Part shown: positions 18,696 to 33,450 of the stretch, piece by piece
Layout: each line of letters opens with the position of its first letter
Numbering within the stretch: position 1 is the first letter of the stretch
Source of the DNA: a virus
Reading direction: 5' to 3' (one strand)
Length of the DNA: 44,907 nt
Virus record (IMG/VR): IMGVR_UViG_3300028394_000121
Coordinates: 1 to 44,907 of that record
Position numbers and translations under genes: made by a program
The notes under the pieces: model-generated
What the model saw: only the letters and a program-made list of their open reading frames with translations
What the model was told of the DNA's origin: nothing
Databases searched by the model: none

Positions 18696-19282
18696 GGGTT
18701 CGTATCGTTTATGGACCACCCCCGACTTTATCGCAAAAACTCGGGAGTCCTTTGGCAAACAAAAAAACCCCCTCTCTTGCGGGGGACCTTCTATTGGGGG
18801 GGTAGCCAATACCATAGAGGGGTCTTATATTGGAGCCCCTCTTGCGGAGCCCCTTCTATTGGAGGGATAGCCAATACCATAGTAGACCCGACCCGTATGT
18901 TGAGACCCGAATATAAGTTCTTACGCTGTAAGGAGTTACGACAAGCTTTCGCCCGCCCGAAAGTTGTAAGTTCTTTGGTACCAACGACTTAGAGCAAGTG
19001 CCCTGTGCAAATATCGTGCCAAACTTTCTACAAAAAAAAATTTTATTTCGCATTCTACTGATACCTTATTGGGGGGGACCTCTATTGGGGGGATAGCTAT
19101 ATCGTAGGTGGGGTATCGTAAACGCAACTCGATTGCATTCTATATATCGACAACTTCTCAACATTTTTGAGCACAAAAAAAAAGATTTTTTGAGACGTAA
19201 AGCCTTGCTACCCAACAGGTTACGTCAAAGCAAAAACATTTTTATATTTCCTATTGGACAAAGCGAATGATGTCGATATAAT
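18696..19282 (+). repeat. Intergenic cassette 1 (expanded, degenerate) with promoter
   Basis: About 590 bases without a gene. It holds several G/C-run hairpins (e.g. CCCCC/GGGGG at 18769-18786), two copies of an ATTGG...CCAAT unit near 18791-18815 and 18860-18884, the nested CTTAC/GTAAG hairpin core at about 18919-18991, and a promoter TTGGAC (19254-19259), 17 bases, TATAAT (19277-19282). Unlike later copies, about 230 bases of extra G-rich and A-rich sequence separate core from promoter. ORFs that can be drawn through it are repeat artefacts. Confidence 0.7.
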
Positions 19283-19333
19283 ACGTAGAGAAGAAGAAAA
19301 GAAGAAAAAGAAAAGAAAGAAAAGAGAAAAACA

Positions 19334-19588
19334 ATGAATATCGAAAAGATCAAAAAGACGTACGGAACAGATTGCCAGACTTGTGAGCAAGTATGGAATC
19401 AAGCGGTTGAAGCCTACAAGAACGACTTCACCTTTGCTGAACATGTTGACGAGTTCAACAATGATCGTTTTGAGTTCAACTCGCCTGAAGCGATTGAAGC
19501 CTACGAACTCAGCGAATACTTTGAAGAACACGTTGAAGAATATTATCTTCCAGAGGCTTGGGAACAATACGATTATGAAACAAGATGA
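19334..19588 (+). CDS. Small acidic protein of cassette block
   Basis: An 84-residue protein rich in Glu, Asp and Tyr (MNIEKIKKTYGTDCQTCEQV...), mostly helical in appearance. It is the first gene behind the cassette 1 promoter, preceded by an A/G-only leader ending GAGAAAAACA-ATG. No family recognised. Highly acidic small proteins in this position of phage genomes often bind or inhibit host proteins, but nothing here proves that. Confidence 0.65.
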   Translation: MNIEKIKKTYGTDCQTCEQVWNQAVEAYKNDFTFAEHVDEFNNDRFEFNSPEAIEAYELSEYFEEHVEEYYLPEAWEQYDYETR

Positions 19589-19619
19589 GTCTAGTAAAGA
19601 AAGAAAAGAGAAAAGCATT

Positions 19620-19871
19620 ATGAAAAAAAACAACGGTCTATCAAAAGTATTTCTAGGAAAAGGTTTCTTTCATATGGAAGAAAAGATGGTAGCGGTAGTG
19701 GAAGGAATCGAGACGCCAGTGTTCTGTCATGGCTCTTTCGGATCCTACTTGATTGTGAGTTCAACCCATTGGAAAAACGGAGGGTTGCGAACTATCGAAG
19801 AAGATTGCGTTGTGAAAGGTTTAGCTCATCAAACGATTTTAGACTTTCATGGAAAAAGGAAAACAGTATGA
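19620..19871 (+). CDS. GFFHM-family paralogue 1
   Basis: An 83-residue protein. I start it at the ATG at 19620, because the homologous proteins begin with the same short Met-x-N-N/D-G-[LI]-[SA]-K segment and a purine leader precedes it. It shares GFFHMEEKMVAVVEG and VFCHGSFGSYLIVSS with two other genes (23464, 24086), defining a three-member family; this member is shorter and diverges after residue 60. Second gene of the cassette 1 unit. Function unknown. Confidence 0.65.
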   Translation: MKKNNGLSKVFLGKGFFHMEEKMVAVVEGIETPVFCHGSFGSYLIVSSTHWKNGGLRTIEEDCVVKGLAHQTILDFHGKRKTV

Positions 19872-20086
19872 ATAACTTTGACGATGTTCCTCTAGCGTTG
19901 ACAACTATCATTGACAACAGAAAAGAAAAAGAAAACCTATCATTCTTTGAACATTTTGATATGGATGCTTTTCTATTAGATCAGGATGAGTCCGAGTCCG
20001 ACTATATACCGGGCTATGATGATGGCGAATGGGATAATAACGAAGAAGTATATGATACATTCGTAGACGTTAATGAGCGGGCGTGA
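19868..20086 (+). CDS. Small acidic protein with SDYIPGYDDG motif
   Basis: A 72-residue, strongly acidic protein overlapping the previous gene by four bases. It carries ESDYIPGYDDGEWD, shared with the gene at 24731, and ends EEVYDTFVDVNERA, which is also the end of the gene at 21589. So it looks like a mosaic of two small protein families. Function unknown. Confidence 0.6.
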   Translation: MNNFDDVPLALTTIIDNRKEKENLSFFEHFDMDAFLLDQDESESDYIPGYDDGEWDNNEEVYDTFVDVNERA

Positions 20087-20099
20087 TAACTACTCCTTG

Positions 20100-20375
20100 C
20101 GGGGGGGGGATAGTGTACAAACGCTACCCCCCTATGAGGGGATACCATTACCCCCCCAACGGACTAGAACTTAAACCCTTACAGCGTAAGAACTTACGAC
20201 AAGCTTTCGCCCGCCCGAAAGTTGTAAGTTGTTTGATACCAACGACTTAGAGCAAGTGCTCAGAGCAAATGTTGTGCCAAACTTTGTACAAAAGATTTAT
20301 TTTGTTTTGGCATGAGAAATTATTCCGAGAAATTTCTTTTTAGCTATTGCAAAAGCCTAGAAGTGTCGATATAAT
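20100..20375 (+). repeat. Intergenic cassette 2 (type copy): hairpins, terminator, promoter
   Basis: The clearest copy. After a C/G hairpin (GGGGG..TAG / CTA..CCCCC, from 20100): H1 20178-20190 (CTTAC-AGC-GTAAG); H2 20193-20228 (CTTACGAC and TTTCG against CGAAA and GTTGTAAG); H3 20225-20249 (TAAGTTGTT/AACGACTTA), sharing TAAG with H2; TGCCAAA (20275-20281) against TTTGGCA (20306-20312); an AU terminator AGAAATT/AATTTCT (20315-20337) plus T-run; then TTGCAA (20347-20352), 17 bases, TATAAT (20370-20375). It ends one unit and starts the next. Confidence 0.9.
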
Positions 20376-20427
20376 ACGTAGAGAAGAAGAAAAGAAGAAA
20401 AAGAAAAGAAAGAAGAAGGATTTTAAG

Positions 20428-20655
20428 ATGAATATTTTTGTGATAGTTGGTTACATTGCGATCTCCGCACTAGTTTTAATCGGTGTCGGCAATGTATTGT
20501 TTTACCTTGTCATTCAAGTGCTTGGCCGTCTTGACAATATGATCCAAAAAGGTGGATACACTTTTCATGGTTGTATTGGAGAGGCACCGAAGATGCCGGA
20601 AGTCTGGAAAGATTCCAACGGAGATGAGTGGACAATATCTTCTTGCGAAGATTGA
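20428..20655 (+). CDS. Small membrane protein (MNxF-VGY family)
   Basis: A 75-residue protein with one N-terminal transmembrane helix (VIVGYIAISALVLIGVGNVL, about 5-24) and a soluble tail of about 45 residues with two Cys. GAAGGA lies about seven bases upstream of the ATG at 20428. The gene at 22712 starts alike (MNMFEVVGYLAIVWLLG), so this is a small paralogue pair. No function recognised. Confidence 0.65.
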   Translation: MNIFVIVGYIAISALVLIGVGNVLFYLVIQVLGRLDNMIQKGGYTFHGCIGEAPKMPEVWKDSNGDEWTISSCED

Positions 20656-20689
20656 TTGTTACATGATCTGCGGGTCAGATAGTATCTTC

Positions 20690-20961
20690 TGGGGGATAGT
20701 GTACAAACGCTACCCCCCTATGAGGGTATACCATTACCCCCCCAACGTACTAGAACTTAAACCCTTACAGCGTAAGAACTTACGACAAGCTTTCGCCCGC
20801 CCGAAAGTTGTAAGTCCTTTGATACCAACGACTTAGAGCGAGTGCCCTGTGCAAATACCGTGCCAAACTTTGTGTAAAAGATTTATTTTGTTTTGGCATG
20901 AGAAATTATTCCGAGAAATTTCTTTTTCCCTATTGCAAAAGCCTAGAGATGACGATATAAT
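20690..20961 (+). repeat. Intergenic cassette 3
   Basis: Almost base-for-base like cassette 2: C/G hairpin, CTTAC/GTAAG core, TGCCAAA inverted repeat, AU terminator and promoter TTGCAA (20933-20938), 17 bases, TATAAT (20956-20961). The spacer ends GACGA rather than GTCGA. Confidence 0.9.
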
Positions 20962-21000
20962 ACACAGAGAAGAAGAAAAGAAGAAAAAGAAAAGAAAGAA

Positions 21001-21327
21001 ATGAGAAAGACGATGATGAAGAAAAAGAGTTATCTAAATTGCGAAGTAGTTGTGAACTATAAAGGTAAGAGGATCGAGGGTGCTGTAGTTGGAGTAGATC
21101 GCAATCTTCATCGTATTGGCGAAAGTCTCGGTACGCGATTGCTCATTCAAACAGAATGGAAAGGCTCTTTCCTAAGAGGTACAGAAACCATTTGCGAAAA
21201 GTCTGTTTACAAGTCCGTCTACCTTGATCAGGCTGAAGGATTCCGCGTTATTGAACGTGCGGATCACTATACTGGAAAAGATGAGCCTTGTGATGCTGTA
21301 AGAGATTATCGTCGAGTTAATAACTAA
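21001..21327 (+). CDS. Hypothetical basic protein of cassette block
   Basis: A 108-residue protein with a beta-rich middle (CEVVVNYKGKRIEGAVVGVDR, then RLLIQTEWKG), looking like a small beta-barrel domain, and a polar C-terminus. It follows cassette 3 with a purine-only leader. A shorter start (MMKKKSY) a few codons in is possible. Function unknown. Confidence 0.65.
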   Translation: MRKTMMKKKSYLNCEVVVNYKGKRIEGAVVGVDRNLHRIGESLGTRLLIQTEWKGSFLRGTETICEKSVYKSVYLDQAEGFRVIERADHYTGKDEPCDAVRDYRRVNN

Positions 21328-21345
21328 AGAAAAGAGAAAAAGAAA

Positions 21346-21558
21346 ATGCTTGCGACGAATTCGAAAAATGTAACAAATAACCTTGATAAGATTTTCACTG
21401 CTATGCGAAACGGTAAGTATAATAGCGTGATTGATACAAGAGGCCGTGTTCACATGGGTATCATCAACGCTATCATGCGTGAAGACGGTAGCGGAAAGAA
21501 TTGGATTGTAACAGTGACAGGTGCGGTAAGCGAAAAAGTATTCATTCACGCCTCTTGA
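21346..21558 (+). CDS. Hypothetical protein of cassette block
   Basis: A 70-residue protein (MLATNSKNVTNNLDKIFTAMRNGKYNSV...). A helix followed by strands (GRVHMGIINAIMRED, WIVTVTGAV). It sits 18 bases after the previous stop, and that gap is only the purine motif AAAGAAAAGAGAAAAAGAAA, which seems to be its ribosome-loading site. Function unknown. Confidence 0.6.
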   Translation: MLATNSKNVTNNLDKIFTAMRNGKYNSVIDTRGRVHMGIINAIMREDGSGKNWIVTVTGAVSEKVFIHAS

Positions 21559-21588
21559 AAAAAGTAAAAAAAAAGAAAGAAAAAGAAA

Positions 21589-21759
21589 ATGGATATGAAT
21601 CATTTTGAAGATGTTCTACTCGCCCTTGAAGATATTATCAACAGCAGAAAGATTAAAGAAAACCTATCATCCTTTGAAAATTTTGATATGGATACGCTCA
21701 CCGAACATGAGGACGAAGAAGTATATGATACATTCGTAGATGTTAATGAGCGGGCGTGA
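21589..21759 (+). CDS. Small acidic protein, C-terminal duplicate of 19868 gene
   Basis: A 56-residue protein (MDMNHFEDVLLALEDIINSRK...), preceded by a purine-only leader. It parallels the gene at 19868 at both ends: NHFEDVLLALEDIINSRKxKENLSSFENFDMD matches its N-terminus in pattern, and EEVYDTFVDVNERA is identical. It lacks the SDYIPGYDDG middle. The DNA around the shared C-terminus and into the cassette is nearly identical, pointing to recent duplication. Confidence 0.6.
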   Translation: MDMNHFEDVLLALEDIINSRKIKENLSSFENFDMDTLTEHEDEEVYDTFVDVNERA

Positions 21760-21773
21760 TAACTACTCCTTGT

Positions 21774-22046
21774 GGGGGGATAGTGTACAAACGCTACCCC
21801 CCTATGAGGGTATACCATTACCCCCCCAACGGACTAGAACTTAAACCCTTACAGCGTAAGAACTTACGGCAAGCGGGGGCCCGCCCGAAAGTTGTAAGTT
21901 GTTTGATACCAACGACTTACGGCAAGTGCCATGTGCAAATGGTGTGCCAAACTTTGTACAAAATATTTATTTTGTTTTGGCATGAAAAATTATTCCGAGA
22001 AATTTCTTTTTTCCCTATTGCAAAAACATAGAACGGACGATATAAT
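21774..22046 (+). repeat. Intergenic cassette 4
   Basis: C/G hairpin, CTTAC/GTAAG core with a GCGGG-GGC-CCGC variant in H2, TGCCAAA inverted repeat, AU terminator and promoter TTGCAA (22018-22023), 17 bases, TATAAT (22041-22046). The ORF drawn through it is an artefact repeated in other copies. Confidence 0.88.
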
Positions 22047-22087
22047 ACATAGAGAAGAAGAAAACAACTAAAAGAAAGAGAAAGACT

Positions 22088-22441
22088 ATGACCATGACAC
22101 TATCAAATTTTAATCAGAACCACTATAAGATGACGACCGGGTTTATTGAGGACGAACAGGGTCTTACCGGAGTCGTTGGAATGATTATATCTTTCGGAGT
22201 CTATGACGACTCCCATGATAGCAATGAAGAGTCATTTTCGTATGACGATGGTCTCGTGAAAAGGTATTACGAGATCGCTCCCTACTACTGTGTAGTAGAT
22301 GAGAACGGGCCAGTCACTGATGATAACGGTACTCTTAAAGTTTTCCCTATTCTTATCGGCGGATGGGGCCACCCGCCCACCGTAGCCTTGATCAGCCTGA
22401 TCGAGCAAGAAATAGACCGAATGTTTTCCATCAACTACTAG
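22088..22441 (+). CDS. Hypothetical protein of cassette block
   Basis: A 117-residue acidic protein (MTMTLSNFNQNHYKMTTGFIEDEQGLTG...). It has alternating strands and a conserved-looking ILIGGWGHPPTVALISLIEQEI C-terminal segment ending in an amphipathic helix. G+C content is higher than in the flanking blocks. No family recognised. Confidence 0.65.
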   Translation: MTMTLSNFNQNHYKMTTGFIEDEQGLTGVVGMIISFGVYDDSHDSNEESFSYDDGLVKRYYEIAPYYCVVDENGPVTDDNGTLKVFPILIGGWGHPPTVALISLIEQEIDRMFSINY

Positions 22442-22504
22442 AAAGTTTACAATGTCCCTCCCGTATACCATTGCAATTGTTAAAAGTATCAACTCTAAAA
22501 AGAA

Positions 22505-22681
22505 ATGAATAAAATGAAAAATCGAAGAAAAGTATCGAATTATGAGAAAGCCCAAGCCCTAATGGAAGAGGCCACCCGTATAGGTATGAACAAAAAGATA
22601 ACCTATCAAAAATGCCTCTGCCCCATTTGTATCGAAGCTCGGAGCAAGCCCCACAGTGTTAAAGTTGTAATAGAGTCTTGA
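22505..22681 (+). CDS. Small Cys-motif protein
   Basis: A 58-residue basic protein (MNKMKNRRKVSNYEKAQALMEEA...). The C-terminal half has KCLCPICIEARSKPHSV, a CxCxxC cluster that could bind a metal with the nearby His. An ATG nine bases downstream is an alternative start. Role unknown. Confidence 0.5.
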   Translation: MNKMKNRRKVSNYEKAQALMEEATRIGMNKKITYQKCLCPICIEARSKPHSVKVVIES

Positions 22682-22711
22682 GTTTAGTATCAATAGAAAA
22701 AAGGTATGTAT

Positions 22712-22915
22712 ATGAATATGTTTGAAGTTGTTGGGTATCTGGCGATTGTTTGGTTGCTCGGTTGTATAGTTTTCCTTCCGTGTTATGCTATCGTATGGTA
22801 TTTTGTTAGTATGAAAAATAATAAGATACCGATGAGTAGTGATAGCGTGTGGGTTAATGGTGTTAATATTCACCATGATACCAATGGTAACATCTCTAGT
22901 TTTGCAAAAGATTAG
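22712..22915 (+). CDS. Small membrane protein (MNxF-VGY family), paralogue
   Basis: A 67-residue protein. I chose the ATG at 22712: AAAAAAGG lies seven bases upstream and the product then aligns with the paralogue at 20428 (MN[IM]F, VGY). One hydrophobic helix (about 6-29, VVGYLAIVWLLGCIVFLPCY) and a polar tail. Function unknown. Confidence 0.6.
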   Translation: MNMFEVVGYLAIVWLLGCIVFLPCYAIVWYFVSMKNNKIPMSSDSVWVNGVNIHHDTNGNISSFAKD

Positions 22916-22928
22916 ATATGCTACCTAC

Positions 22929-23177
22929 GGGGGGATAGTGTACAAATGCTACCCCCCTGAGATACTAGGTCTTAAACCCTTACAGCGTAAGGACTTACGA
23001 CAAGCGGGGGCCCGCCCGAAAGTTGTAAGTTGTTTGGTAGCAACGACTTAGGGCGAATGACCAGTGCAAATACCGTGCCAAACTTTGTGTAAAAGATTTA
23101 TTTTGTTTTGGCATGAGAAATTATTCCGAGAAATTTCTTTTTTAGCTATTGCAAAGGGTTAGAATAGTCGATATAAT
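22929..23177 (+). repeat. Intergenic cassette 5
   Basis: C/G hairpin with a shortened spacer (GAGATACTAGGTC), CTTAC/GTAAG core, TGCCAAA inverted repeat, AU terminator and promoter TTGCAA (23149-23154), 17 bases ending GTCGA, TATAAT (23172-23177). Confidence 0.88.
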
Positions 23178-23221
23178 ACTTAGAGAAGAAGAAAAGAAGA
23201 AAAAGAAAAAAGGAAAAGAAA

Positions 23222-23452: not shown

Positions 23453-23463
23453 GGAGAATGATT

Positions 23464-23748: not shown

Positions 23749-23749
23749 G

Positions 23750-24035
23750 CACAAACACTACCCCCTGTATGAGGGGGACACTCTTGTGGGGGGATAGTGT
23801 ACAAACGCTACCCCCCTGAGACACTAGATCTTAAACCCTTACAGCGTAAGGACTTACGATTTTGGGGCGGGCCCCCGCAAGCTGTAAGTTCTTTGATACC
23901 AACGACTTAGAGCAAGCGTCCAGAGCAAATGGTGTGCCAAACTTTGTACAAAAGATTTATTTTGTTTTGGCATGAGAAATTATTCCGATAAATTTCTTTT
24001 TAGCTATTGCAAAAGCTGAGAATGGACGATATAGT
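23750..24035 (+). repeat. Intergenic cassette 6 (inverted G/C arm)
   Basis: Same order as the others, but the H2 arm is replaced by a different pair: CTTACGA then TTTTGGGGCGGGCCCCCGC and CTGTAAG, so pairing is kept with different bases. The promoter is TTGCAA (24007-24012), 17 bases, TATAGT (24030-24035), the only copy with a weakened -10. A second truncated CCCCCTGTATGAGGGGG hairpin precedes it. Confidence 0.85.
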
Positions 24036-24085: not shown

Positions 24086-24490
24086 ATGACAAAGAACAAC
24101 GACGGTCTTGCAAAAAAGTTCGGTGATGTGGGTTTCTTCCACATGTTGGAAAGAATGATGGTCACGATTGAGGGCGAGAAAGAGCAGGTTGTGTGCCACG
24201 GCACGTTCGGAAGCCAGTTGCTTCTGAGTTCTCAAAAATGGGATGGAATCAAGATGGTCGATGTCGATAGCATTGTCTGTCGCCCTTTTCATCCGGTCTT
24301 CACCAGCATTATGCTGGGAGATCAAAGCAAGGAAAATCTTCTGGAATACTGGCATTGGGTCGGTCTGCCTCAAGACCATCTCTATGTCGATTGGGACGTG
24401 ATGTATTTGAGCGAAATGGAAGCGATCTGTATGGACGGACTACAAGAGGAGGACTACCCTCTTAATTGCGAAGCTGATTGGGGGAAGTAA
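24086..24490 (+). CDS. GFFHM-family paralogue 3 (longest)
   Basis: A 134-residue protein. DGLAKKFGDVGFFHMLERMM, VVCHGTFGSQLLLSSQKWDG and IKMVDVDSIVCRPFHP are shared with paralogue 2; the last 60 residues (LLEYWHWVGLPQDHLYVDWDV onward) are unique. G+C is higher than in paralogue 2, so the two have diverged. Function unknown. Confidence 0.7.
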   Translation: MTKNNDGLAKKFGDVGFFHMLERMMVTIEGEKEQVVCHGTFGSQLLLSSQKWDGIKMVDVDSIVCRPFHPVFTSIMLGDQSKENLLEYWHWVGLPQDHLYVDWDVMYLSEMEAICMDGLQEEDYPLNCEADWGK

Positions 24491-24691
24491 ACCCTTACAG
24501 CGTAAGAACTTAGAGCAAGCAGGGGCCCGCCCGAAAGTTGTAAGTTGTTTGATACCAACGACTTAGAGCAAACGCCCAGAGCAAATACCGTGCCAAACTT
24601 TGTACAAAAGAATTATTTTTATTTGGCATGAGAAATTATTCCGATAAATTTCTTTTTTCCTATTGCAAAAGAATAGAATGGTCGATATAAT
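24487..24691 (+). repeat. Intergenic cassette 7 (no C/G hairpin)
   Basis: Starts right at the stop codon of the preceding gene; lacks the C/G hairpin. H1 is followed by CTTAGAGC in place of CTTACGAC, so the H2 outer stem is weakened. TGCCAAA inverted repeat, AU terminator, promoter TTGCAA (24663-24668), 17 bases ending GTCGA, TATAAT (24686-24691). Confidence 0.85.
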
Positions 24692-24954: not shown

Positions 24955-25297
24955 GTGGGGGGATAGTGTACAAACGCTACCCCCCTATGAGGGTATGCCA
25001 TTACCCAGGTATGCTTATAGTCTCACCAAATCCACGGAGATTGACTAAATTGGCTATAGTCAGCGAGAATCACCCCCCCACAACATACTAGATCTTAAAC
25101 CCTTACCCCGTAAGGAGTTACGAAAAGCTTTCGCCCGCCCGAAAGTTGTAAGTTGTTTGGTAGCAACGACTTAGAGCAAGCGTCCTGTGCAAATACTGTG
25201 CCAAACTTTCTCAAAAGAATTATTTTATTTGGCATGGTAAATTATTTCCCGAATTTCTTTTTTTCCTATTGCAAAATCATAGGATGGTCGATATAAT
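24955..25297 (+). repeat. Intergenic cassette 8 with inserted GATAGTCAGCGAG element
   Basis: C/G hairpin, then a copy of the second repeat family (hairpin plus TATAGTCAGCGAG) at 25018-25070 between the hairpin and the CTTAC core, then core, TGCCAAA inverted repeat, AU terminator and promoter TTGCAA (25269-25274), 17 bases ending GTCGA, TATAAT (25292-25297). Confidence 0.85.
25018..25070 (+). repeat. Hairpin/GATAGTCAGCGAG element, copy 1
   Basis: AATCC/GGATT-like hairpin (AATCC ACG GAGATT here, imperfect), then CTATAGTCAGCGAG. The same arrangement is found in two tandem copies at 29191-29308 and in AT-rich variants at 33.7, 34.2 and 36.1-36.3 kb. Confidence 0.8.
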
Positions 25298-26444: not shown

Positions 26445-26651
26445 CGTAAACCCTTTGGTCGTAAGAACTTAGGGCAAGCGGGGGCCCGCCCGGAAGTTGT
26501 AAGTTCTTTGGCAGCAACGACTTAGAGCGAATGCCCCGTGCAAATACTGTGCCAAACTTTGTACAAAAGATTTATTTTGTTTTGGCATGAGAAATTATTC
26601 CGAGAAATTTCTTTTTTAGCTATTGCAAAAGATTAGAAGTGTCGATATAAT
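26445..26651 (+). repeat. Intergenic cassette 9 (no C/G hairpin)
   Basis: Core with CTTTGGTCGTAAG in H1, GCGGGGGCCCGCCC in H2, TGCCAAA inverted repeat, AU terminator and promoter TTGCAA (26623-26628), 17 bases ending GTCGA, TATAAT (26646-26651). Confidence 0.87.
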
Positions 26652-27127: not shown

Positions 27128-27535
27128 ATGAAACTAGAAACATACGAAGCAGCAATAGCAGCGATTGAGAAAACTCGAAACAAAGTATCCAAGAGAGTGT
27201 CGGCCAATACTACCCTCTACAAAATTGTGGCTGTGGATGGTACGGTAACTGTGGGAGTAAAACTCTATGATACATTTGTGGTCATCATGCACCCGGATCA
27301 TTCGGTATTATTTTCGGGAGGTTATAAAACCAGCACTACAAAAAAGAGAATCAATAACTATAGCTTGTGTTCGATATTTCAAAAAGACTTTGAATGGTTT
27401 GTGAAAGATGGTACCCCTTTTGAGGAGGGGATCGTAGTAGATCGTGGGGGGGCATTGCTATCTTTGACTCCTCAGAGTTTAGAGTGTGCATCATTTATAC
27501 TCCCGCCCCTAACTCCTTTGGTCATAGGAACTTAG
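27128..27535 (+). CDS. Hypothetical beta-rich protein running into a cassette
   Basis: A 135-residue protein. A short N-terminal helix (YEAAIAAIEKTRNKV) and repeated strands (LYKIVAVDGTVTVGVKLYDTFVV, then HSVLFSGGYKTSTTKKRINNYS) that look like a small beta domain I associate with phage and plasmid accessory proteins. Its last ~15 codons lie inside the H1/H2 start of cassette 10, so the repeat has supplied the C-terminus. Function unknown. Confidence 0.6.
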   Translation: MKLETYEAAIAAIEKTRNKVSKRVSANTTLYKIVAVDGTVTVGVKLYDTFVVIMHPDHSVLFSGGYKTSTTKKRINNYSLCSIFQKDFEWFVKDGTPFEEGIVVDRGGALLSLTPQSLECASFILPPLTPLVIGT

Positions 27536-27678
27536 GGCAAGCGGGCCCCCGCCCGGAAGTTGTAAGTTGTTTGATACCAACGACTTAGAGCGAATACCCA
27601 GTGCAAATGGTGTGCCAAAAAAATATTTTAATAAATTTCTTTTTAGCTATTGCAAAAGAATAGAAGAGACGATATAAT
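27505..27678 (+). repeat. Intergenic cassette 10 (shortened)
   Basis: H1 is changed (CTTTGGTCATAGG), H2 uses GCGGGCCCCCGC, H3 intact. The TGCCAAA arm is present but its partner and the GTTTTGGCA segment are deleted, so the terminator starts at AAATATTTTAATAAATTTCTTTTT. Promoter TTGCAA (27650-27655), 17 bases, TATAAT (27673-27678). Confidence 0.85.
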
Positions 27679-28002: not shown

Positions 28003-28031
28003 TTGCAAAAGAACAGAAGAGATGATATAAT
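28003..28031 (+). promoter_or_regulatory. Class I promoter without cassette core
   Basis: TTGCAA (28003-28008), 17 bases, TATAAT (28026-28031), very like the cassette promoters but with no upstream hairpins or terminator. It lies directly upstream of structured RNA A and the LexA-type gene. Confidence 0.8.
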
Positions 28032-28037
28032 ACATAT

Positions 28038-28145
28038 ATTCCGGTACCATCCCGAATACGGGTGGTGGAGCGAATTAACGCCACGGCGCTACACCCGTGT
28101 CTTATCACTAATCAGGTAAGATCGCTGAATTAACAGCCGGACACC
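28038..28145 (+). ncRNA. Candidate structured RNA A (leader of LexA-type gene)
   Basis: A segment beginning where transcription should start. Nested helices: CCGG 28041-28044 with CCGG 28137-28140; ACCA-t-CCCG (28046-28054) with CGGGTGGT (28059-28066); AGCG 28069-28072 with CGCT 28123-28126 enclosing CACGG/CCGTG (28082-28099) and CTTATC/GGTAAG (28101-28120). GAATTAAC occurs twice inside. It lies 32 bases before the ATG of the LexA-type gene, so a regulatory leader or independent small RNA. No known family recognised. Confidence 0.5.
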
Positions 28146-28176
28146 GCACACAGAGGAAAAGAAAAAAGGAAAAAAA

Positions 28177-28809
28177 ATGAAACCGCTCACCGAACGACAA
28201 ACTGCTATCTACGAATTCATTCGAGAGAAGATTCAGTCTCGCGGATATGGTCCGACCATCAGGGAAATCGGTGATGCTTTCCAAATTCATTCACTCAATG
28301 GAGTGATATGCCACCTAAAAGCTCTGGAGAAAAAGGGGTGGATTACACGTGGAAAGAAAATGTCAAGAGCAATCCAACTCCTTGGTGAGCCACCGATGGT
28401 ATATACGACTCAGCATAAAGTTGCTGTTGCCATGATTGAATCGACGTATGAAGCCTATAAAGACTGGAAAAGTCATGATAAGGAATATTTGACCGACGAA
28501 TTAAATAACTATAATGACAACATTCCAGTATGGCGAGATATGGATGATAACACCAAGTGCGCAGCGATTGAATACGTATACAACAAGCGTGATACTATTG
28601 AGCTTCATTCTGATATTGTTGAATCTTGGGTACAAGCAACAGCGTATTTTATGTTATATAATTTTTGTAGTGATATTACAAATGGAGAAGAGCCAGATTT
28701 GGAAATGTTTTTTGATGATCTGGATTTTATGTTGGACGAAGAAATTCTCAACGATAGTGATGTTCAAAAGATAATGGGAATAAGTTCAGATTTTACAAAA
28801 AAGTTCTAA
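28177..28809 (+). CDS. LexA-type DNA-binding protein without peptidase domain
   Basis: A 210-residue protein. Residues 3-70 match the LexA winged-helix domain closely: LTERQTAIYEFIREKIQSRG, YGPTIREIGDAFQI, LNGVICHLKALEKKGWI, and RAIQLLG. The rest is not the S24 Ser-Lys peptidase of LexA: it is helical and acidic (KVAVAMIESTYEAYKDW..., ending DSDVQKIMGISSDF). So it should bind an operator but not self-cleave. It sits behind its own class I promoter and structured RNA A. A regulator of the cassette promoters is an obvious hypothesis. Confidence 0.78.
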   Translation: MKPLTERQTAIYEFIREKIQSRGYGPTIREIGDAFQIHSLNGVICHLKALEKKGWITRGKKMSRAIQLLGEPPMVYTTQHKVAVAMIESTYEAYKDWKSHDKEYLTDELNNYNDNIPVWRDMDDNTKCAAIEYVYNKRDTIELHSDIVESWVQATAYFMLYNFCSDITNGEEPDLEMFFDDLDFMLDEEILNDSDVQKIMGISSDFTKKF

Positions 28810-28837
28810 TGAAACTACGCTCCTCTTTCTTCTCTCC

Positions 28838-29007
28838 GTAAACCCTTTGATCGTAAGAACTTAGGGCGAGCGGGGGCCCGCCCGAAAGTTGTAAGTCCTT
28901 TGATAGCAACGACTTAGAGCAAACACCCAGAGCAAATACTGTGCCAAAAAAATATTTTAATAAATTTCTTTTTCCCTATTGCAAAAGAACAGAAGAGACG
29001 ATATAAT
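28838..29007 (+). repeat. Intergenic cassette 11 (shortened)
   Basis: CTTTGATCGTAAG H1, GCGGGGGCCCGCCC H2, H3 present, TGCCAAA arm without partner, terminator-like AAATTTCTTTTT, promoter TTGCAA (28979-28984), 17 bases, TATAAT (29002-29007). Downstream of it no coding frame follows for 500 bases, only structured RNA B. Confidence 0.85.
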
Positions 29008-29014
29008 ACATACA

Positions 29015-29188
29015 TAGGCCAGTAACTGCGAGAGGGAAGCAGGGCGACGAGATTAAAAAATCTCTAAGGACCAGTGCCGTGGGCAGTTCCAGTATTGATG
29101 CTTTCGAGCAGGGAGAAATTTCCCTAGATACTGATTATAGAACCGGATCGTAAATGGTTCGCTGGTAACAATACAACAGCCGGATACC
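29015..29188 (+). ncRNA. Candidate structured RNA B
   Basis: About 175 bases with no usable ORF, starting seven to eight bases after the cassette 11 TATAAT. Domain 1: AACTGC 29024-29029 with GCAGTT 29083-29088, enclosing GAGATT-AAAA-AATCTC (29049-29064). Domain 2: CAGTAT 29090-29095 with ATACTG 29128-29133, enclosing GCT-TTCG-AGC (29100-29109) and GGGA/TCCC (29111-29124). Then AACC/GGTT. It ends CAGCCGGATACCG, as RNA A ends CAGCCGGACACCG. Very likely a non-coding RNA; class unknown. Confidence 0.55.
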
Positions 29189-29190
29189 GT

Positions 29191-29308
29191 TTAGTCTCAC
29201 CAAATCCACGGGGATTGGCTAAATTGGCTATAGTCAGCGAGAATGCGGGGCCGTTTAGTCTCACCAAATCCACGGGGATTGGCTAAATTGGTTATAGTCA
29301 GCGAGAAT
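29191..29308 (+). repeat. Hairpin/GATAGTCAGCGAG element, tandem copies 2 and 3
   Basis: Two nearly identical 54-base units (29191-29244 and 29254-29308) directly after RNA B. Each has TTTAG...CTAAA, an internal CCAAATCC-ACG-GGGATTGG hairpin, and [CT]TATAGTCAGCGAGAAT. Confidence 0.85.
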
Positions 29309-29327
29309 CCCCCCGAACATACTAGAT

Positions 29328-29455
29328 CTTAAACCCTTACCACGTAAGGACTTACGAAAAGCTTTCGCCCGCCCGGAAGTTGTAAGTTCTTTGATACCAA
29401 CGACTTAGGGCGAACTCGCTGTGCAAATACTGTGCCAAACTTTGTACAAAAGATT
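29328..29455 (+). repeat. Intergenic cassette 12 (core only)
   Basis: CTTACCACGTAAG H1, H2 with TTTCG/CGGAA, H3, then TGCCAAACTTTGTACAAAAG. The AU terminator and TTGCAA promoter are missing and are replaced by a TTGACA promoter at 29482. Confidence 0.82.
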
Positions 29456-29481
29456 TTCACAATAATTCATGCTAGAGCCTA

Positions 29482-29510
29482 TTGACAACCGATAATAGGT
29501 ATGGTATAAC
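29482..29510 (+). promoter_or_regulatory. Class II promoter with extended -10
   Basis: TTGACA (29482-29487), 17 bases ending ATGG, TATAAC (29505-29510). TGG directly before the -10 is an extended -10 signature. Confidence 0.7.
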
Positions 29511-29535
29511 GATGGAAAGAGAAAGAGGAGAAAGA

Positions 29536-29742
29536 ATGTTCCCAACAAAATTTATGGATCACTCGGCCTACATGAAGAAGGTCAAACGAATGACTCAGGC
29601 TGAATTGGAATATACCATCAAAGATTGTAAAGAGGTATTGGCCGTGTGGGTTGACCACCCCAATTGTGGGTACTATTCAGATGAGATATGTTACTGTTCG
29701 ACGGAACTACACAGAAGGAAAGTAAAGGCCCAAAATGTATAA
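29536..29742 (+). CDS. Hypothetical protein
   Basis: A 68-residue protein (MFPTKFMDHSAYMKKVKRMTQAELEY...). I start it at 29536 since GAGGAG is five bases upstream; starts further up lie within the promoter. It has an AELEYTIKDCKEVLAVW helix and HPNCGYYSDEICYCSTELHRR, with a Cys cluster. Phage proteins beginning with a [ML]xxxELxxxIxDxxEAxxxxP-type helix and ending [YH]xDExxxCxxEL[RH]RR are common; function unknown. Confidence 0.7.
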   Translation: MFPTKFMDHSAYMKKVKRMTQAELEYTIKDCKEVLAVWVDHPNCGYYSDEICYCSTELHRRKVKAQNV

Positions 29743-30127
29743 AGTAAGATTTCACCTCGGTGCTGGTAAACATTACAAGCATTGGCAGATTCGGTCGGAA
29801 TGCGGAGTGTCGTATTACTGGCCTATCGAGGTTCAACTCTTTTTGTTTAACTGTGTGCTAAAAAGCAATAAGAAGAAAGCATACAAGGTATATGCTGAAC
29901 AGGTGCGTGACGTGTGTGGTTGGGTCGAGTGTGACAATGTTAAAGTCGAAGATATGACTTTTGCATATGAGCCTATTACAGTGGAGGGATTGCCAAGGAT
30001 CACATATGATCCGAAGGTAACGCCGTATTGGAAGATCGAGGGAGATAGCGATAATTATGAAATGTTAAGAGTACAAAGAGTAGTATCAAATGGTAATAAA
30101 TTATTTATGAGAGAGAGCTATGTATGA
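29735..30127 (+). CDS. Hypothetical protein overlapping a tRNA
   Basis: A 130-residue protein (MYKVRFHLGAGKHYKHWQIRS...). The first 50 residues have alternating strands with HWQI and YYWPIEVQLFL. The pattern GxHYxxWQI...YxxP is one seen in small phage proteins of unknown function. It overlaps the previous gene by eight bases, and its stop codon overlaps the first bases of tRNA-Arg. Confidence 0.7.
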   Translation: MYKVRFHLGAGKHYKHWQIRSECGVSYYWPIEVQLFLFNCVLKSNKKKAYKVYAEQVRDVCGWVECDNVKVEDMTFAYEPITVEGLPRITYDPKVTPYWKIEGDSDNYEMLRVQRVVSNGNKLFMRESYV

Positions 30128-30199
30128 TCCCGTAGCTCAAATGGATAGAGCAACAACCTTCTAAGTTGTGGGTTGCAAGTTCAAGTCTTGCCGGGGTTA
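30126..30199 (+). tRNA. tRNA-Arg (TCT)
   Basis: Full cloverleaf: acceptor GATCCCG/CGGGGTT with two G-T pairs, D arm GCTC/GAGC, anticodon arm ACAAC-CTTCTAA-GTTGT with TCT, T arm GCAAG-TTCAAGT-CTTGC. CCA is not encoded. TCT reads AGA, a favoured arginine codon in AT-rich phage genes. Confidence 0.92.
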
Positions 30200-30227
30200 T
30201 TGACAAAGTGTTTTTTTGTGGTAAAAT
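30200..30227 (+). promoter_or_regulatory. Class II promoter immediately after tRNA-Arg
   Basis: TTGACA (30200-30205), 16 bases ending TGTGG, TAAAAT (30222-30227). The -35 begins at the base after the tRNA discriminator. Confidence 0.65.
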
Positions 30228-30272
30228 GTCGTAGTGTTCTAAGTTGTTCGATTGTTCAAAGGGAGAGTTTTT

Positions 30273-30665
30273 ATGAGTAGTATGGAATTGGCTTATGTTG
30301 TTGGTGTTTTTAGTTTGACCTCTGGCCTTATTGGTGGGTTGGTCGCTATGTATCTGAATGGGACTTATATTCCTCTGAAGGAAGCCCATCCCGGTGATGT
30401 TGTGAATTTTGTTTATCTCCAACCTGCTGCTGGACAACCCGAAAGGTATCTGGCTAAAGTTGTTGGAGTAAGTAAGTTGACGCAAGAACAAATTGCTCGA
30501 CTTGATAAGAAAAGTTATTATCGATCTAAGGATGTTGCTTTCAAGAGAACAGAGCACCTTATCAAATGTGTTATGAAAGACGGTACGTTGAGAAATTTCT
30601 ATGCGGAACGAACAGTAGATTGTAAAAAAGTCCCGTTCGGAGGAATTTTCCACAAAGTATCTTGA
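30273..30665 (+). CDS. Small membrane-anchored protein
   Basis: A 130-residue protein with one N-terminal transmembrane helix (about residues 6-28, YVVGVFSLTSGLIGGLVAMY) and a soluble beta-rich domain (PGDVVNFVYLQPA, YLAKVVGVSKL). Start chosen at 30273: AAAGGGAGAG lies seven bases upstream. Function unknown; topology suggests the soluble part inside the envelope or outside the cytoplasm. Confidence 0.65.
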   Translation: MSSMELAYVVGVFSLTSGLIGGLVAMYLNGTYIPLKEAHPGDVVNFVYLQPAAGQPERYLAKVVGVSKLTQEQIARLDKKSYYRSKDVAFKRTEHLIKCVMKDGTLRNFYAERTVDCKKVPFGGIFHKVS

Positions 30666-30676
30666 TACTCCCTGCC

Positions 30677-30750
30677 TCGCAAACCCTCTGTGCGTAAGCA
30701 CTTAGGGCGAGCGGGCCCCCGCCCGGAAGTTGCAAGTTCTTATGGGGTAA
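30677..30750 (+). repeat. Intergenic cassette 13 (core only)
   Basis: CTCTGTGCGTAAG H1, then CTTAGGGC with GCGGGCCCCCGC and GTTGCAAG (the H2 outer stem is degraded), no H3, no TGCCAAA element; the next promoter is a class II at 30789. Confidence 0.78.
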
Positions 30751-30788
30751 GACTTTGCATCATATTATTTTTTCCTAAAGATTTCCTC

Positions 30789-30817
30789 TTGACAAGTCGA
30801 TTTATATCGTATACAAT
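30789..30817 (+). promoter_or_regulatory. TTGACA promoter upstream of Gp88-like gene
   Basis: TTGACA (30789-30794), 17 bases containing AGTCGAT, TACAAT (30812-30817), 26 bases before the ATG at 30844. AAAGGGAG is the ribosome site. Confidence 0.72.
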
Positions 30818-30843
30818 AATCAGACACAAAGGGAGAAAATCTA

Positions 30844-31554
30844 ATGCAGTCAAGTAAGGGAAATGATAAACTCGGAACGGGTTGTAGAGTTGTTAGCAGA
30901 GCGGTTGGTGATAGCTGCCCGCCAACGTGCGATTTTCTAGGCATAGATTGTTATGCTGAGGGTACCGAGCGAATTTTTAAGGCTTCGCGAGCGGTGGGCT
31001 TGCGAAATATGATCACCGAAGCGGGCAAAATCCGAAGTTTGATTCTTACCACTATCGAAGAAAAAAGATCATTACGCTGGCACGAACGTGGCGACCTGCT
31101 GAAAAACGGGCAACTAGACTTGGAATATATCGGCAATATTGTAAAGGCTTGTGAAAGTATTCTAGCCGACGGTATCGCATTACCTCATATGTGGATGTAT
31201 TCTCATGTTTATGATAGCCGTGTTGTTGATATGCTAGGAAAGTATATTGTACTGTATGCTAGTATCCACAATAAAGAGCATAAAGAGCAAGCTATAAAAG
31301 CGGGGTATACTCTATTCGCATGGTGTGATACCTTAAAAGTTTATAGTCCCAAAAAGCCTCGCGGCAAAAAAGCCGTGGAATGGAAAAAAGCTCTTCCTAA
31401 GCTGGCCATAATTGACGGTGACAAATATGTTACCTGCCCAGAAATGCGACGGGGTCGAGAGGAGGGTGGGGTAACTTGCACCGGGACAAAAGATTCGATA
31501 CCATGTAATTTGTGTGTTAAGGGCTTGGCGAATGTTTTATTTTTGAACCACTAA
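30844..31554 (+). CDS. Gp88-like protein
   Basis: A 236-residue protein matching the phage Gp88-like family in outline: KLGTGCRVVSRAVGDSCPPTCDFLG with early Cys, HERGDLLKNGQLDLEYI, a YSHVYDSRVVDMLGKYIVLYASIHNKE stretch, and a C-terminal Cys cluster (VTCPEMRR..VTCTGTKDSIPCNLCVKG). The Cys-rich ends suggest a metal or Fe-S site. Biochemical function is not established. G+C content is visibly higher than in the flanking blocks, consistent with a mosaic origin. Confidence 0.8.
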   Translation: MQSSKGNDKLGTGCRVVSRAVGDSCPPTCDFLGIDCYAEGTERIFKASRAVGLRNMITEAGKIRSLILTTIEEKRSLRWHERGDLLKNGQLDLEYIGNIVKACESILADGIALPHMWMYSHVYDSRVVDMLGKYIVLYASIHNKEHKEQAIKAGYTLFAWCDTLKVYSPKKPRGKKAVEWKKALPKLAIIDGDKYVTCPEMRRGREEGGVTCTGTKDSIPCNLCVKGLANVLFLNH

Positions 31555-31568
31555 AAGAAAGAGTGTCT

Positions 31569-31733
31569 ATGAATTATAGTATTGAAACGTCTGAAAGTAT
31601 ACAGGAAGATATACTTACTTGTATTGAGGGGTTTTCTGTCAAGGGGAAGATTACAGATATTGAACGGCTGAATGATGCTTTATGTCAGATTATTGTAGAC
31701 AGAAGGAAGTTATTAAATAAAGGAACTTTGTAA
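31569..31733 (+). CDS. Small acidic hypothetical protein
   Basis: A 54-residue helical protein (MNYSIETSESIQEDILTCIEGF...). Its stop (TAATG) overlaps the next start by one base. Sits in an operon with the Gp88-like gene. Confidence 0.6.
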   Translation: MNYSIETSESIQEDILTCIEGFSVKGKITDIERLNDALCQIIVDRRKLLNKGTL

Positions 31734-32071
31734 TGGGAAAATACTATGTTACTTGTGGAACATTGGAAGTTATAGTTCAGGCAGATAATCCCCAACATGC
31801 AGTTTGTACTGCATTAGACCAAGCAAATAAAAATGACGAATTAGATGATGGTATAGTTGTAGATGAAAGAGGTTTTAGGTATCTTGATCCAGTAAAGGTA
31901 GCTAGAAACGAAGCTCCGCCAATGTCTGATGTAGTAAAATGGTTATGGGAAAATGATAATATAGAAAAATCGGAAAATGTTATGTTCTTTGTACCACAAC
32001 ATTATTTTAGCTTGGAAAATTTTATGGAAGTTATGGGTGATGATGATGATGATGATTTTGAAGATGAATAA
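31733..32071 (+). CDS. Hypothetical protein with Asp-rich tail
   Basis: A 112-residue protein. The first half (MGKYYVTCGTLEVIVQADNP, then AVCTALDQAN) resembles a small beta-alpha domain common in phages (YYVxxGxLxxIVxAxxPxxAA). The C-terminus ends in GDDDDDDFEDE. Function unknown. Confidence 0.7.
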   Translation: MGKYYVTCGTLEVIVQADNPQHAVCTALDQANKNDELDDGIVVDERGFRYLDPVKVARNEAPPMSDVVKWLWENDNIEKSENVMFFVPQHYFSLENFMEVMGDDDDDDFEDE

Positions 32072-32081
32072 ATAGTGGTGG

Positions 32082-32240
32082 CCCTAAGTCCTTTGTGCTT
32101 AAACACTTAGGACAAACGGGCGGGGCCCCGAAATTTGTAAGTTCTTTAGTACCAACGACTTACGACTCTTAAAATATTTTTATTTTTTCTAAAAGAATTA
32201 TTGTTATTTGGCACGGGAAATTATTCCGAAAAATTTCTAA
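32082..32240 (+). repeat. Intergenic cassette 14 (divergent)
   Basis: Core strongly drifted (CTTAGGACAAACGGGCGGGG...TTTGTAAG), H3 recognisable, then ATTTTTATTTTTT, GGCACGGGAAATTATTCCGAAAAATTTCT. The promoter downstream is TTGCAT with an extended -10. Confidence 0.75.
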
Positions 32241-32248
32241 ACTAGGGC

Positions 32249-32276
32249 TTGCATTAAGTCGATGATATGGTAGAAT
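32249..32276 (+). promoter_or_regulatory. Promoter of DUF932 gene
   Basis: TTGCAT (32249-32254), 16 bases (containing AGTCGAT, ending ATATGG), TAGAAT (32271-32276). Intermediate between the two promoter classes. Confidence 0.65.
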
Positions 32277-32326
32277 CATGTTATGGGAACGAATGACGGT
32301 AAACACTTTTTGAAAGGGATGATGCT

Positions 32327-33271
32327 ATGAGTCATGCAGTAGAGACGATGTTTTTTGTTCGAGAGACCCCTTGGCACGGGCTTGGGGTAAAGTTGGAGGA
32401 AGCACCGACTGTGTCGGAAGCGATTGTCGCTGCTGGTCTCGATTGGACTGTAGGGTTGAAAGACCTGTTCACCGCCGAAGGTCAACCAGTTCCAGCAAAG
32501 GCGACGTATCGTGAGACGGACGGGTCTATTCTGGGTGTTGTTGGCCCACGGTATAGCCCGCTCCAAAATGCTTCGGCATTTGACTGGTTTCAGCCTTTTA
32601 TCGACTCCGGCGAAGTATCGTTGCATACTGCCGGTAGTTTGAACGAGGGTTGCAAGGTATGGGTGTTGGCCGAGTTAAATCGTGAAAAGTCCGAGATCGT
32701 GAAGGGTGACGAGATTGCAAAGTTTGTACTCTTGTCAAATTCTCACGATGGTACGACCGCGATTAGGGTCGGGTATACCCCGATCAGGGTGGTATGTGCA
32801 AACACGATGGCGATGGCCCATAGTTGCAAGGAATCTAAGCTGTTGCGTGTTCGACATACAAAGTCGAGTGCTCAAAAGCTCGAAGATATACGAGGCATTA
32901 TGAATAACATAAACGCCGAGTTCGAGGCAACTGCGGAACAGTACAAATATCTTGCAAGCAAGATGTTCAATAGTGCTGACCTTCTTAAGTATGTTAAGAT
33001 CATTCTGGACATTGAATTGTCTACTCCGAGTTCTGAGATTAAAACCAGAACAAAGAATATCATGAATGATATACTATCAAGGGTCGAGGGGCCAAAGCAA
33101 ACGATGGCGGGTGTTAATGGTACATGGTGGGCCGCTTATAATGGGGTTAATGAGTACCTCAATTATGAGAAGGGTCGAAGTGCTAATAACAGACTGGACT
33201 CGTTGTGGTTCGGGCTGAATGCTAACAGTAACAAAAGAGCTTTTGATACTGCACTAGCACTGGCTAGCTAA
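32327..33271 (+). CDS. DUF932 domain protein
   Basis: A 314-residue protein with the usual DUF932 start: ETMFFVRETPWHGLGVKL, then AGLDWTVGLKDLF, GVVGPRYSPLQN and the middle RVVCANTMAMA. This family occurs widely in phages and plasmids and probably acts on DNA or RNA, but the activity is not established. G+C is the highest in the window by eye. GGGATGATGCT-ATG gives a weak ribosome site. A tRNA-Asp begins five bases after the stop. Confidence 0.88.
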   Translation: MSHAVETMFFVRETPWHGLGVKLEEAPTVSEAIVAAGLDWTVGLKDLFTAEGQPVPAKATYRETDGSILGVVGPRYSPLQNASAFDWFQPFIDSGEVSLHTAGSLNEGCKVWVLAELNREKSEIVKGDEIAKFVLLSNSHDGTTAIRVGYTPIRVVCANTMAMAHSCKESKLLRVRHTKSSAQKLEDIRGIMNNINAEFEATAEQYKYLASKMFNSADLLKYVKIILDIELSTPSSEIKTRTKNIMNDILSRVEGPKQTMAGVNGTWWAAYNGVNEYLNYEKGRSANNRLDSLWFGLNANSNKRAFDTALALAS

Positions 33272-33276
33272 TTCGA

Positions 33277-33350
33277 GGGGGTGTAGCTCAACTGGTTAGA
33301 GCGTCGGCTTGTCACGCCGAAGGTTGCGGGTTCGAGTCCCGTCACTCCCG
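33277..33350 (+). tRNA. tRNA-Asp (GTC)
   Basis: Cloverleaf: acceptor GGGGGTG/CACTCCC, D arm GCTC/GAGC, anticodon arm TCGGC-TTGTCAC-GCCGA, T arm GCGGG-TTCGAGT-CCCGT. CCA not encoded. Probably cotranscribed with the DUF932 gene. Confidence 0.95.
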
Positions 33351-33372
33351 CTTAATTTCACAAAACCGAGAG

Positions 33373-33450
33373 TCGTAAACCCTTACCACCAAAGGACTTA
33401 CGATTTTCGGGCGGGGGCAAAATTTTTGTAAGTTGTTGTGGGATAAGGAC
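33373..33450 (+). repeat. Intergenic cassette 15 (core only, compensated)
   Basis: CTTACCACCAAAGG H1 (mutated), then CTTACGATTTTCGGG...GGGGCAAAATTTTTGTAAG, where the inner stem is AT-rich and paired differently from all other copies. The TTGACA promoter follows at 33488. Confidence 0.75.

Follow-up and report, generated by a model that had tools for sequence, protein, structure and literature searches.

Phages take up and shed host-takeover genes all the time. How they wire newly gained ones into their infection programme is an open question, and a 44,907-nucleotide stretch of viral DNA (IMG/VR virus record IMGVR_UViG_3300028394_000121; this whole stretch is called the window) raises it in concrete form, with a standard module standing before unrelated genes. 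The window matches bases 9674-54644 of a 122,120-base IMG/VR contig, G003, at 99.995-100% identity. Its minus-strand structural genes include those for portal, terminase and major head protein (PHROGs), and to the right of these lie small plus-strand genes with repeats between them. A first-pass annotation, made from the letters alone, had described the repeats as a composite cassette of hairpins, terminator and promoter that ends one transcription unit and starts the next. The array itself is real: a repeat search of the window returned families of 7 to 14 copies each, spanning 18.9-33.4 kb at the places the annotation had given, and blastn of one copy gave 17 matches inside the window. What that annotation overlooked is a fixed-spacing double palindrome, common to many phages and helically phased to promoters. 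We propose that each element is probably a double operator on double-stranded DNA, acting from the face of RNA polymerase and co-activating one regulon of small units.

Alignment of the copies shows that their strongest constant part is an element of 82 bp. It contains two 29-bp palindromes, in which 11-bp arms enclose a 7-bp centre and whose consensus is CGTAANYCCTT-N7-AASGACTTASG. All 15 copies in the window have a unit-to-unit spacing of exactly 53 bp. Twenty-nine of the 30 units score 17-21, whereas 20 shuffles of the window never exceeded 16; the right unit of copy 13 (30731) scores 13, a level that shuffles often reach. With a promoter threshold of 9 of 12 bases, and with d counted from where the second palindrome ends up to the -35 box, a promoter lies 29-96 bp downstream of 13 of the 15 copies. 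The copies, and two lone units, are as follows:

18912..18993, plus strand: double palindrome copy 1 (units 18912, 18965); nearest promoter 19255, d = 261
19196..19224, plus strand: lone extra palindrome unit, score 17
20170..20251, plus strand: double palindrome copy 2 (units 20170, 20223); promoter 20347-20375, d = 95
20756..20837, plus strand: double palindrome copy 3 (units 20756, 20809); promoter 20933-20961, d = 95
21840..21921, plus strand: double palindrome copy 4 (units 21840, 21893); promoter 22018-22046, d = 96
22971..23052, plus strand: double palindrome copy 5 (units 22971, 23024); promoter 23149-23177, d = 96
23830..23911, plus strand: double palindrome copy 6 (units 23830, 23883); promoter 24007-24035 (TATAGT), d = 95
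24486..24567, plus strand: double palindrome copy 7 (units 24486, 24539); promoter 24663-24691, d = 95
25094..25175, plus strand: double palindrome copy 8 (units 25094, 25147); promoter 25269-25297, d = 93
26445..26526, plus strand: double palindrome copy 9 (units 26445, 26498); promoter 26623-26651, d = 96
27508..27589, plus strand: double palindrome copy 10 (units 27508, 27561); promoter 27650-27678, d = 60, in register
28837..28918, plus strand: double palindrome copy 11 (units 28837, 28890); promoter 28979-29007, d = 60, in register
29328..29409, plus strand: double palindrome copy 12 (units 29328, 29381); promoter from 29482 (TTGACA), d = 72
30678..30759, plus strand: double palindrome copy 13 (units 30678, 30731); promoter 30789-30817, d = 29, in register
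32083..32164, plus strand: double palindrome copy 14 (units 32083, 32136); no promoter at threshold, a weak TTGCAT...TAGAAT by eye near 32249
33374..33455, plus strand: double palindrome copy 15 (units 33374, 33427); promoter 33488-33516, d = 32
33771..33799, plus strand: lone extra palindrome unit, score 17

The TTGCAA-N17-TATAAT promoter of the first-pass annotation was found at ten copies, as TATAAT or TATAGT; it does not hold at 18.9 kb, where the nearest promoter is 261 bp off, or at 32.1 kb, where none reaches threshold. By eye, the G/C-rich spacer between the palindromes looks reverse-complemented relative to its neighbours, as if inverted, in the copies at 23830, 32083 and 33374. Copy 1 (18700-19240, plus strand) is flanked by extra G/C-rich inverted repeats (ggggg...ccccc), and the lone unit at 19196 lies between this copy and its promoter.

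The annotation had not recognised the composite as a known kind. The element is not confined to the window and is found in many viral contigs. Scans of viral contigs with an exact one-palindrome pattern gave 17 stretches, a paired pattern gave 91, and two variants gave 49 and 35. With a profile built from 119 seed matches, many of the loci fetched proved to hold more than one copy, often at intervals of about 1 kb, including 17 copies in contig G011, 15 in G003, 9 each in G019 and G002, and 8 in G007. Three contigs were scanned whole for single palindromes, and in each of them those scoring at least 17 are confined to one region (27 in G011, of 232 kb; 31 in G003; 16 in G007, of 174 kb). A mobile element with scattered copies was rejected on this restriction of strong palindromes to one region in each of these three contigs. 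The same three contigs have a major head protein, portal and terminase in common. In a bacterial genome collection the strict paired pattern occurred in 2 stretches, on contigs of 6 and 14 kb from metagenome-assembled genomes (MAGs); in both MAGs all palindromes with at most 2 mismatches sit on a single contig, and these two contigs are probably mis-binned phage. An element of the host was likewise rejected, the strict paired pattern having only these 2 stretches in the genome collection, where single palindromes were not searched. Annotated phages gave no match for a window copy, consensus-like queries reached a best E of 0.2 in annotated phages and 8 in plasmids, nothing convincing, and one Singulisphaera plasmid contained no palindrome.

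For quantitative comparison we used a non-redundant set of 298 elements, from which elements below 30 bits and identical or at least 80% identical copies had been dropped, and which leaves out loci L001-L008 (the window copies) and L012, L017, L021 and L022 (duplicates of G003). The spacing between units is 53 bp in 209 of the 298 and 52 bp in 55 more; among 145 held-out copies, described below, 113 have 53 bp.

The annotation had listed a CTTAC/GTAAG hairpin cluster among the parts of the cassette. As RNA, such hairpins might form a terminator, attenuator or RNase site. Single copies do fold somewhat better than shuffles, as a palindrome would (z -2.19 for the C/G part and -2.37 for the palindrome part). 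In 260 non-redundant copies, however, the fraction of Watson-Crick or GU pairs is about that expected from column composition, both within the palindromes and over the whole 82-bp hairpin. In 50 diverse copies, pairing over the whole hairpin is 64.4% against 64.4% after column shuffling (a value that 267 of 500 shuffles reach or exceed), and over the two palindromes 75.0% against 75.1% (337 of 500). The absence of overall covariation argues that the palindromes do not act as RNA or as a single-strand hairpin and is as expected for double-stranded protein sites. The phasing to promoters described below would, moreover, be meaningless for RNA. An RNA-level element is thus largely refuted as a reading of the palindromes, and we regard it as scarcely credible. 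Rfam matched only three tRNAs in the window, and a search of 27.9-29.4 kb returned no family even with E allowed to rise to 1.

The other parts of the proposed cassette fared differently from one another. Two of them are located as follows:

20100..20162, plus strand: C/G inverted repeat (family D10), with more copies from 20679, 21763, 22918, 23777 and 24946
20263..20345 (limits approximate), plus strand: GCAAAT...GTGCCAAA module and the A+T-rich stretch up to the -35 box, corresponding to the TGCCAAA repeat and 'AU terminator' of the first reading

The TGCCAAA part is genuine, and its GCAAA...TGCCA form is present in other phages too: it occurs at 25 of the 298 elements against 14 of 5680 control windows, with d at least 49 bp in all 20 promoter-bearing cases. 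The AU terminator was not borne out. The window has 14 terminator-like sites against 13.0 in shuffles, in a scan that demands three G-C pairs and could hardly call an AU stem; four of the sites are on the plus strand, and the sole one in a cassette, at 18768, lies in the G/C-rich sequence before copy 1. The AU stem folds at -5 kcal/mol (z -0.97). Since it adjoins the -35 box directly upstream, where other family members have an A+T-rich stretch, and folds weakly, it appears to be promoter-upstream DNA, though it may yet act as a weak terminator. Insulation of the units by a terminator with nested hairpins consequently lacks support from covariation, from the terminator scan with its demand for three G-C pairs, and from AU-stem folding. 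Nor was the suggested loss of parts in order along the array confirmed. The C/G hairpin is present in the copies at 20.1, 20.7, 21.8, 22.9, 23.8 and 25.0 kb and absent from that at 24.5 kb, and the exact AU-stem string is gone at 25.1, 27.5, 28.9, 29.4, 30.7 and 33.4 kb and kept at 26.5 and 32.1 kb.

The distance from element to promoter follows the turn of the helix. A promoter was found within 180 bp downstream of 174 of the 298 elements, at 15-66 bp in 134 of them. These distances to the -35 box peak at 18, 28-29, 39, 49 and 59-60 bp and leave 33-36, 43-45 and 52-57 bp empty; 118 of the 134 fall at 17-19, 28-30, 37-40, 48-51 or 58-60 bp, classes that are post hoc and cover 17 of the 52 positions. 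For 155 promoters at 20-120 bp the Rayleigh R is 0.66, a value reached by none of 2000 jittered controls, and when each of the 51 loci, a few of which share a contig, contributes a single element, R is 0.73 against a 99.9% point of 0.36 under a uniform null. The ranges (20-120 bp, later 15-66 bp) and the five classes were chosen after the first histograms; phase and period were frozen only for a held-out test. This used 63 new loci, after removal of elements at least 80% like the old ones and of six loci on contigs already used. It gave 56 promoters in 28 loci, with a mean phase of 7.7 bp as in training, and 45 of the 56 lie within 2 bp of it against 38% expected; with one promoter per locus R is 0.63 against 0.47. 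The promoters themselves are alike, carrying CGAT in the spacer between -35 and -10 in 120 of 134 cases (random 17-mers, 5%) and in 46 of the 56 held-out ones.

The double palindrome, its near-fixed spacing, the absence of overall covariation, the phasing to promoters (replicated in held-out loci) and the clustering in three contigs are direct observations, whereas a bound protein, its contact with RNA polymerase, activation and early expression are inferred. With 53 bp, or close to five helical turns, from one to the next, the two palindromes lie on one face of the helix, where one protein or complex would bind both. Spacing from the promoter by whole helical turns is also a property of class I activators and of Fis at the promoters of rRNA genes. 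Because the distance to the promoter is likewise quantised in helical turns here, the bound protein would sit on the face of RNA polymerase and may touch it at a sigma-70-type promoter a whole number of turns downstream. The contact would probably be made by the alpha C-terminal domain, which would span the A+T-rich stretch that precedes the -35 box. The outcome would be co-activation of one regulon, in which every one of many small transcription units has a copy of the element to itself. One protein thus probably controls the whole gene block in a family of large uncultured bacterial viruses.

Several observations weigh against this reading. No promoter at threshold lies within 180 bp of 124 of the 298 elements, the distances of the 40 promoters further off than 66 bp form no clear peaks, and only 56 of the 145 held-out elements have a promoter at 15-66 bp, leaving 89 without. 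Nine of the 56 held-out values lie at 31-33, 44 or 53-55 bp, which are nearly empty in training. Where a promoter lies on the opposite side of the element, phasing is seen in training (20 cases, R 0.59) but cannot be told from chance among the held-out elements (16 cases, R 0.32). The main exception is the lineage of the window itself: seven of its copies stand at 95-96 bp, close to the wrong face of the helix, and an eighth at 93 bp, and good register is limited to the copies at 27.5, 28.8 and 30.7 kb. Compared with the 60-bp copies, the 95-96 bp copies carry about 35 bp extra, in which lie the remainder of the TGCCAAA inverted repeat and a portion of the AU stem; a single event is their probable origin, and they are accordingly counted as one exception. 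A few column pairs depart from independence either way, up to +0.13 for one centre pair and +0.03 to +0.06 for several pairs in the G/C-rich spacer, and the likeness to an UP element rests on base frequencies judged by eye. In the search for a binder, the family of a 76-residue candidate protein (described below) was strong, at E 8e-20 or better, in only 20 of the 49 records, with 8 more weak and partial, and it is therefore not the sole binder unless the others have diverged.

The sign of the control is a separate matter. The promoters are often near consensus (exact TTGACA in 78 of 127, exact TATAAT in 70 of 127) and may for that reason not need an activator; the same operator could then work in the opposite sense, with a later-binding protein shutting the block off through contact with RNA polymerase or through DNA looping. 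There are precedents in the excerpts of published sources on which this and the following comparisons draw. In phi29, protein p4 works together with p6 to repress the early promoters and activate the late ones, and p4 acts from paired inverted repeats (PMC3100819); at gal, repression by GalR looping requires helical phasing between operators (PMC4693257). The operators described here, however, lie well upstream of the -35 box, mostly by 28-60 bp, whereas sites 1 and 3 of p4 overlap it (PMC3100819). We therefore consider repression unlikely, although it might still work by looping to a second operator downstream of the promoters. Activation is preferred because the sites lie upstream of, and not over, the core promoter, and appears reasonably likely.

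The genes that follow the elements vary greatly. Around the arrays, 569 of 830 protein clusters are singletons, in naive open reading frame (ORF) calls of at least 50 residues, some of them spurious, from loci that overlap; the most widespread cluster, to which the DUF932 gene of the window belongs, reaches 26 of 110 loci, some overlapping or near-identical. The median distance from the palindrome core to the next start is 116 bp in 94 cases, again from naive ORF calls; the calls of the greedy caller, used for median distances only, overlapped 73 of 184 elements by more than 40 bp. Of the chain of insulated, separately promoted small ORFan units envisaged at first, the promoters after 13 of the 15 window elements and the abundance of singletons agree with separate promotion and ORFan content, and the insulation by terminators is the part that found no support.

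This turnover could also mean that the element is a recombination cassette, either a site like the attC of integrons, with the palindrome as the core site of a recombinase, or a homology patch of the kind formed by the promoter-early stem-loop elements (PeSLs) of phages, by which small genes are shuffled. By eye, pairs of 11-7-11 palindromes inside a larger palindrome do resemble attC sites, and some synteny breaks fall at elements (L036/L056 and, as an exact case, L034/L110). Overall, though, breakpoints are barely enriched there: 32 of 255 (13%) fall inside elements against 9% at random, and 24% against 19% within 60 bp, in comparisons where conserved elements bias the ends of alignments. 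The tyrosine recombinase family PF00589 was found in 0 of 49 records, fragments included (controls 14 of 14), which leaves room for a recombinase acting in trans. Integron-like cassettes were rejected on this result, the near-fixed spacing and the absence of covariation or any other signal of single-strand pairing. Shuffling, which may be a side effect, would also leave the phasing to promoters unexplained, and as the function of the element we find recombination highly improbable.

No comparable element was found among the matches listed in the open literature. The nearest recorded kinds are PeSLs, the start-associated sequences (SAS) and extended SAS (ESAS) of mycobacteriophages, phi29 p4 sites and class I activator sites; features of the element speak against the first two, and the last describes its action. 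Like class I sites such as those of CRP, and of Fis at rrnB P1, the element is a palindromic site upstream of a sigma-70 promoter, at helical-turn positions and with an A+T-rich stretch before the -35 box. It lies outside the core promoter, upstream of the -35 box, at a distance that is helically phased, as seen in natural variation only and with the 95-96 bp copies excepted. What differs is that two 29-bp palindromes, mostly 53 bp apart, serve each promoter, before many genes of one phage region, and that the centres of the elements lie further upstream than the class I position of -61.5 given in the excerpt (PMC4693257).

In the excerpt on phi29, p4 likewise regulates phage genes from paired imperfect inverted repeats beside promoters for host RNA polymerase, but from four sites in one control region, two of them over -35 boxes, with the sequence CTTTTT-15 bp-AAAATG (PMC3100819). 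PeSLs of T4-type phages are also repeated promoter cassettes among shuffled genes; as there described, they couple the promoter to a stem-loop or terminator (PMC4503421), whereas we find a double operator without covariation or a supported terminator, and an AU stem that is weak, is absent from several copies and could hardly be called by the scan. SAS and ESAS of cluster K mycobacteriophages share the arrangement of a repeated intergenic sequence with inverted repeats before many small genes (PMC3203893). According to the cited passages, SAS lie at translation starts and ESAS are 17-bp repeats with a spacer of 4-13 bp (PMC3203893); the present elements lie at the median distance from the next called start given above, and have 11-bp arms, a 7-bp centre and units 53 bp apart. 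Finally, in phage GIL01 the LexA homologue gp6 activates from a palindrome and LexA-gp7 acts at tandem operators, with the gp6 site at -43.5, over the -35 box of one promoter, in the account cited (PMC6182141). The window's own LexA-like gene (28177-28809), in comparison, clusters with genes of only 3 loci.

Three genes to the left of the array bear on which protein might read the element:

15126..15356, plus strand: 76-residue protein with helix-turn-helix (HTH) and AT-hook-like parts, a low-confidence candidate for the trans-acting factor
14145..14903, minus strand: 252-residue protein with a weak, below-cutoff match to sigma-70 region 2; family in 46 of 49 array-bearing records
13345..14184, minus strand: 279-residue protein with an N-terminal three-helix region and long helices (coiled-coil); family in 44 of 49 array-bearing records

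The 76-residue protein has a predicted three-helix HTH-like fold (mean predicted local distance difference test score 76) and an AT-hook-like tail. Among 11 members of its family, 9 matched PHROGs labelled 'HNH endonuclease' and 6 'transcriptional regulator, D5-like', and 4 matched the AT-hook model with E values no higher than 1; its best folds in the PDB are small terminases, at non-significant scores. For 12 of the 13 distinct members listed, the gene and the element closest to it are 99-4318 bp apart, in loci that had been fetched around elements, and in contig G028 it lies at 208.7 kb, far from the fetched elements at 3-15 kb. The sigma-like gene is about 1-5 kb from the nearest element in the seven records compared (G002, G003, G007, G009, G011, G019 and G043). 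Judging from gene order, the 279-residue protein may be the small terminase subunit.

As to the hosts, G003 encodes three DUF1501 proteins (L133:17999-19243, L134:6133-7377 and L135:126-1463), with relatives in G007 or G011. DUF1501 is typical of planctomycetes, and the best plasmid match of these proteins is to Singulisphaera; one of the three, compared with annotated phages, gave no match. The three genes are a hint of a planctomycete or related host. As for kinship with T4-type phages, the carriers of PeSLs, the major head protein matched only Bacillus phage G, at 22% identity, and the best terminase match is at 24%. To our knowledge, no phage regulation has been studied in Planctomycetota. 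It is a tentative possibility, about which we keep some doubt, that the arrays form a family-wide phage regulon in which one factor, supplied by phage or host, reads a standard module through a helix-phased contact with RNA polymerase, so that new genes are plugged in under common control, in hosts that are probably Planctomycetota. The helical phasing makes the mechanism directly testable, and the element can serve as a tag by which a large group of uncultured phages is recognised in sequence data, as a marker of accessory-gene sites and as DNA bait for a new regulatory protein.

Other features were noted in and beside the array. A second intergenic repeat of about 55-60 nucleotides, ending in AGTCAGCGAG, has 8 copies in the window (25058, 29232, 29296, 33758, 34243, 36171, 36235 and 36314, plus strand), and this 10-mer is present 1-3 times in each of 20 further phage loci that were fetched, a few of which overlap. 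Near 29.2 kb this repeat had no Rfam match, and two stretches of it fold unremarkably (z -0.85 and -1.31). Two long stretches that follow array promoters without an obvious gene (28003-28165 and 28979-29190, plus strand) share ACAGCCGGAYACCG (at 28133 and 29176), which occurs in no fetched locus outside G003; they fold with z -2.5 and -0.2, respectively, and are candidates for a small RNA or a leader before the LexA-like gene. Metabolic genes lie beside the array at 12272-13348 (minus strand) and at 15368-16309, 16302-16706 and 16690-17397 (plus strand), encoding nucleotide-sugar epimerases, S-adenosylmethionine decarboxylase and ThyX. A gene for a 564-residue protein resembling homing or HNH endonucleases (1767-3461, minus strand) adjoins the major head protein gene.

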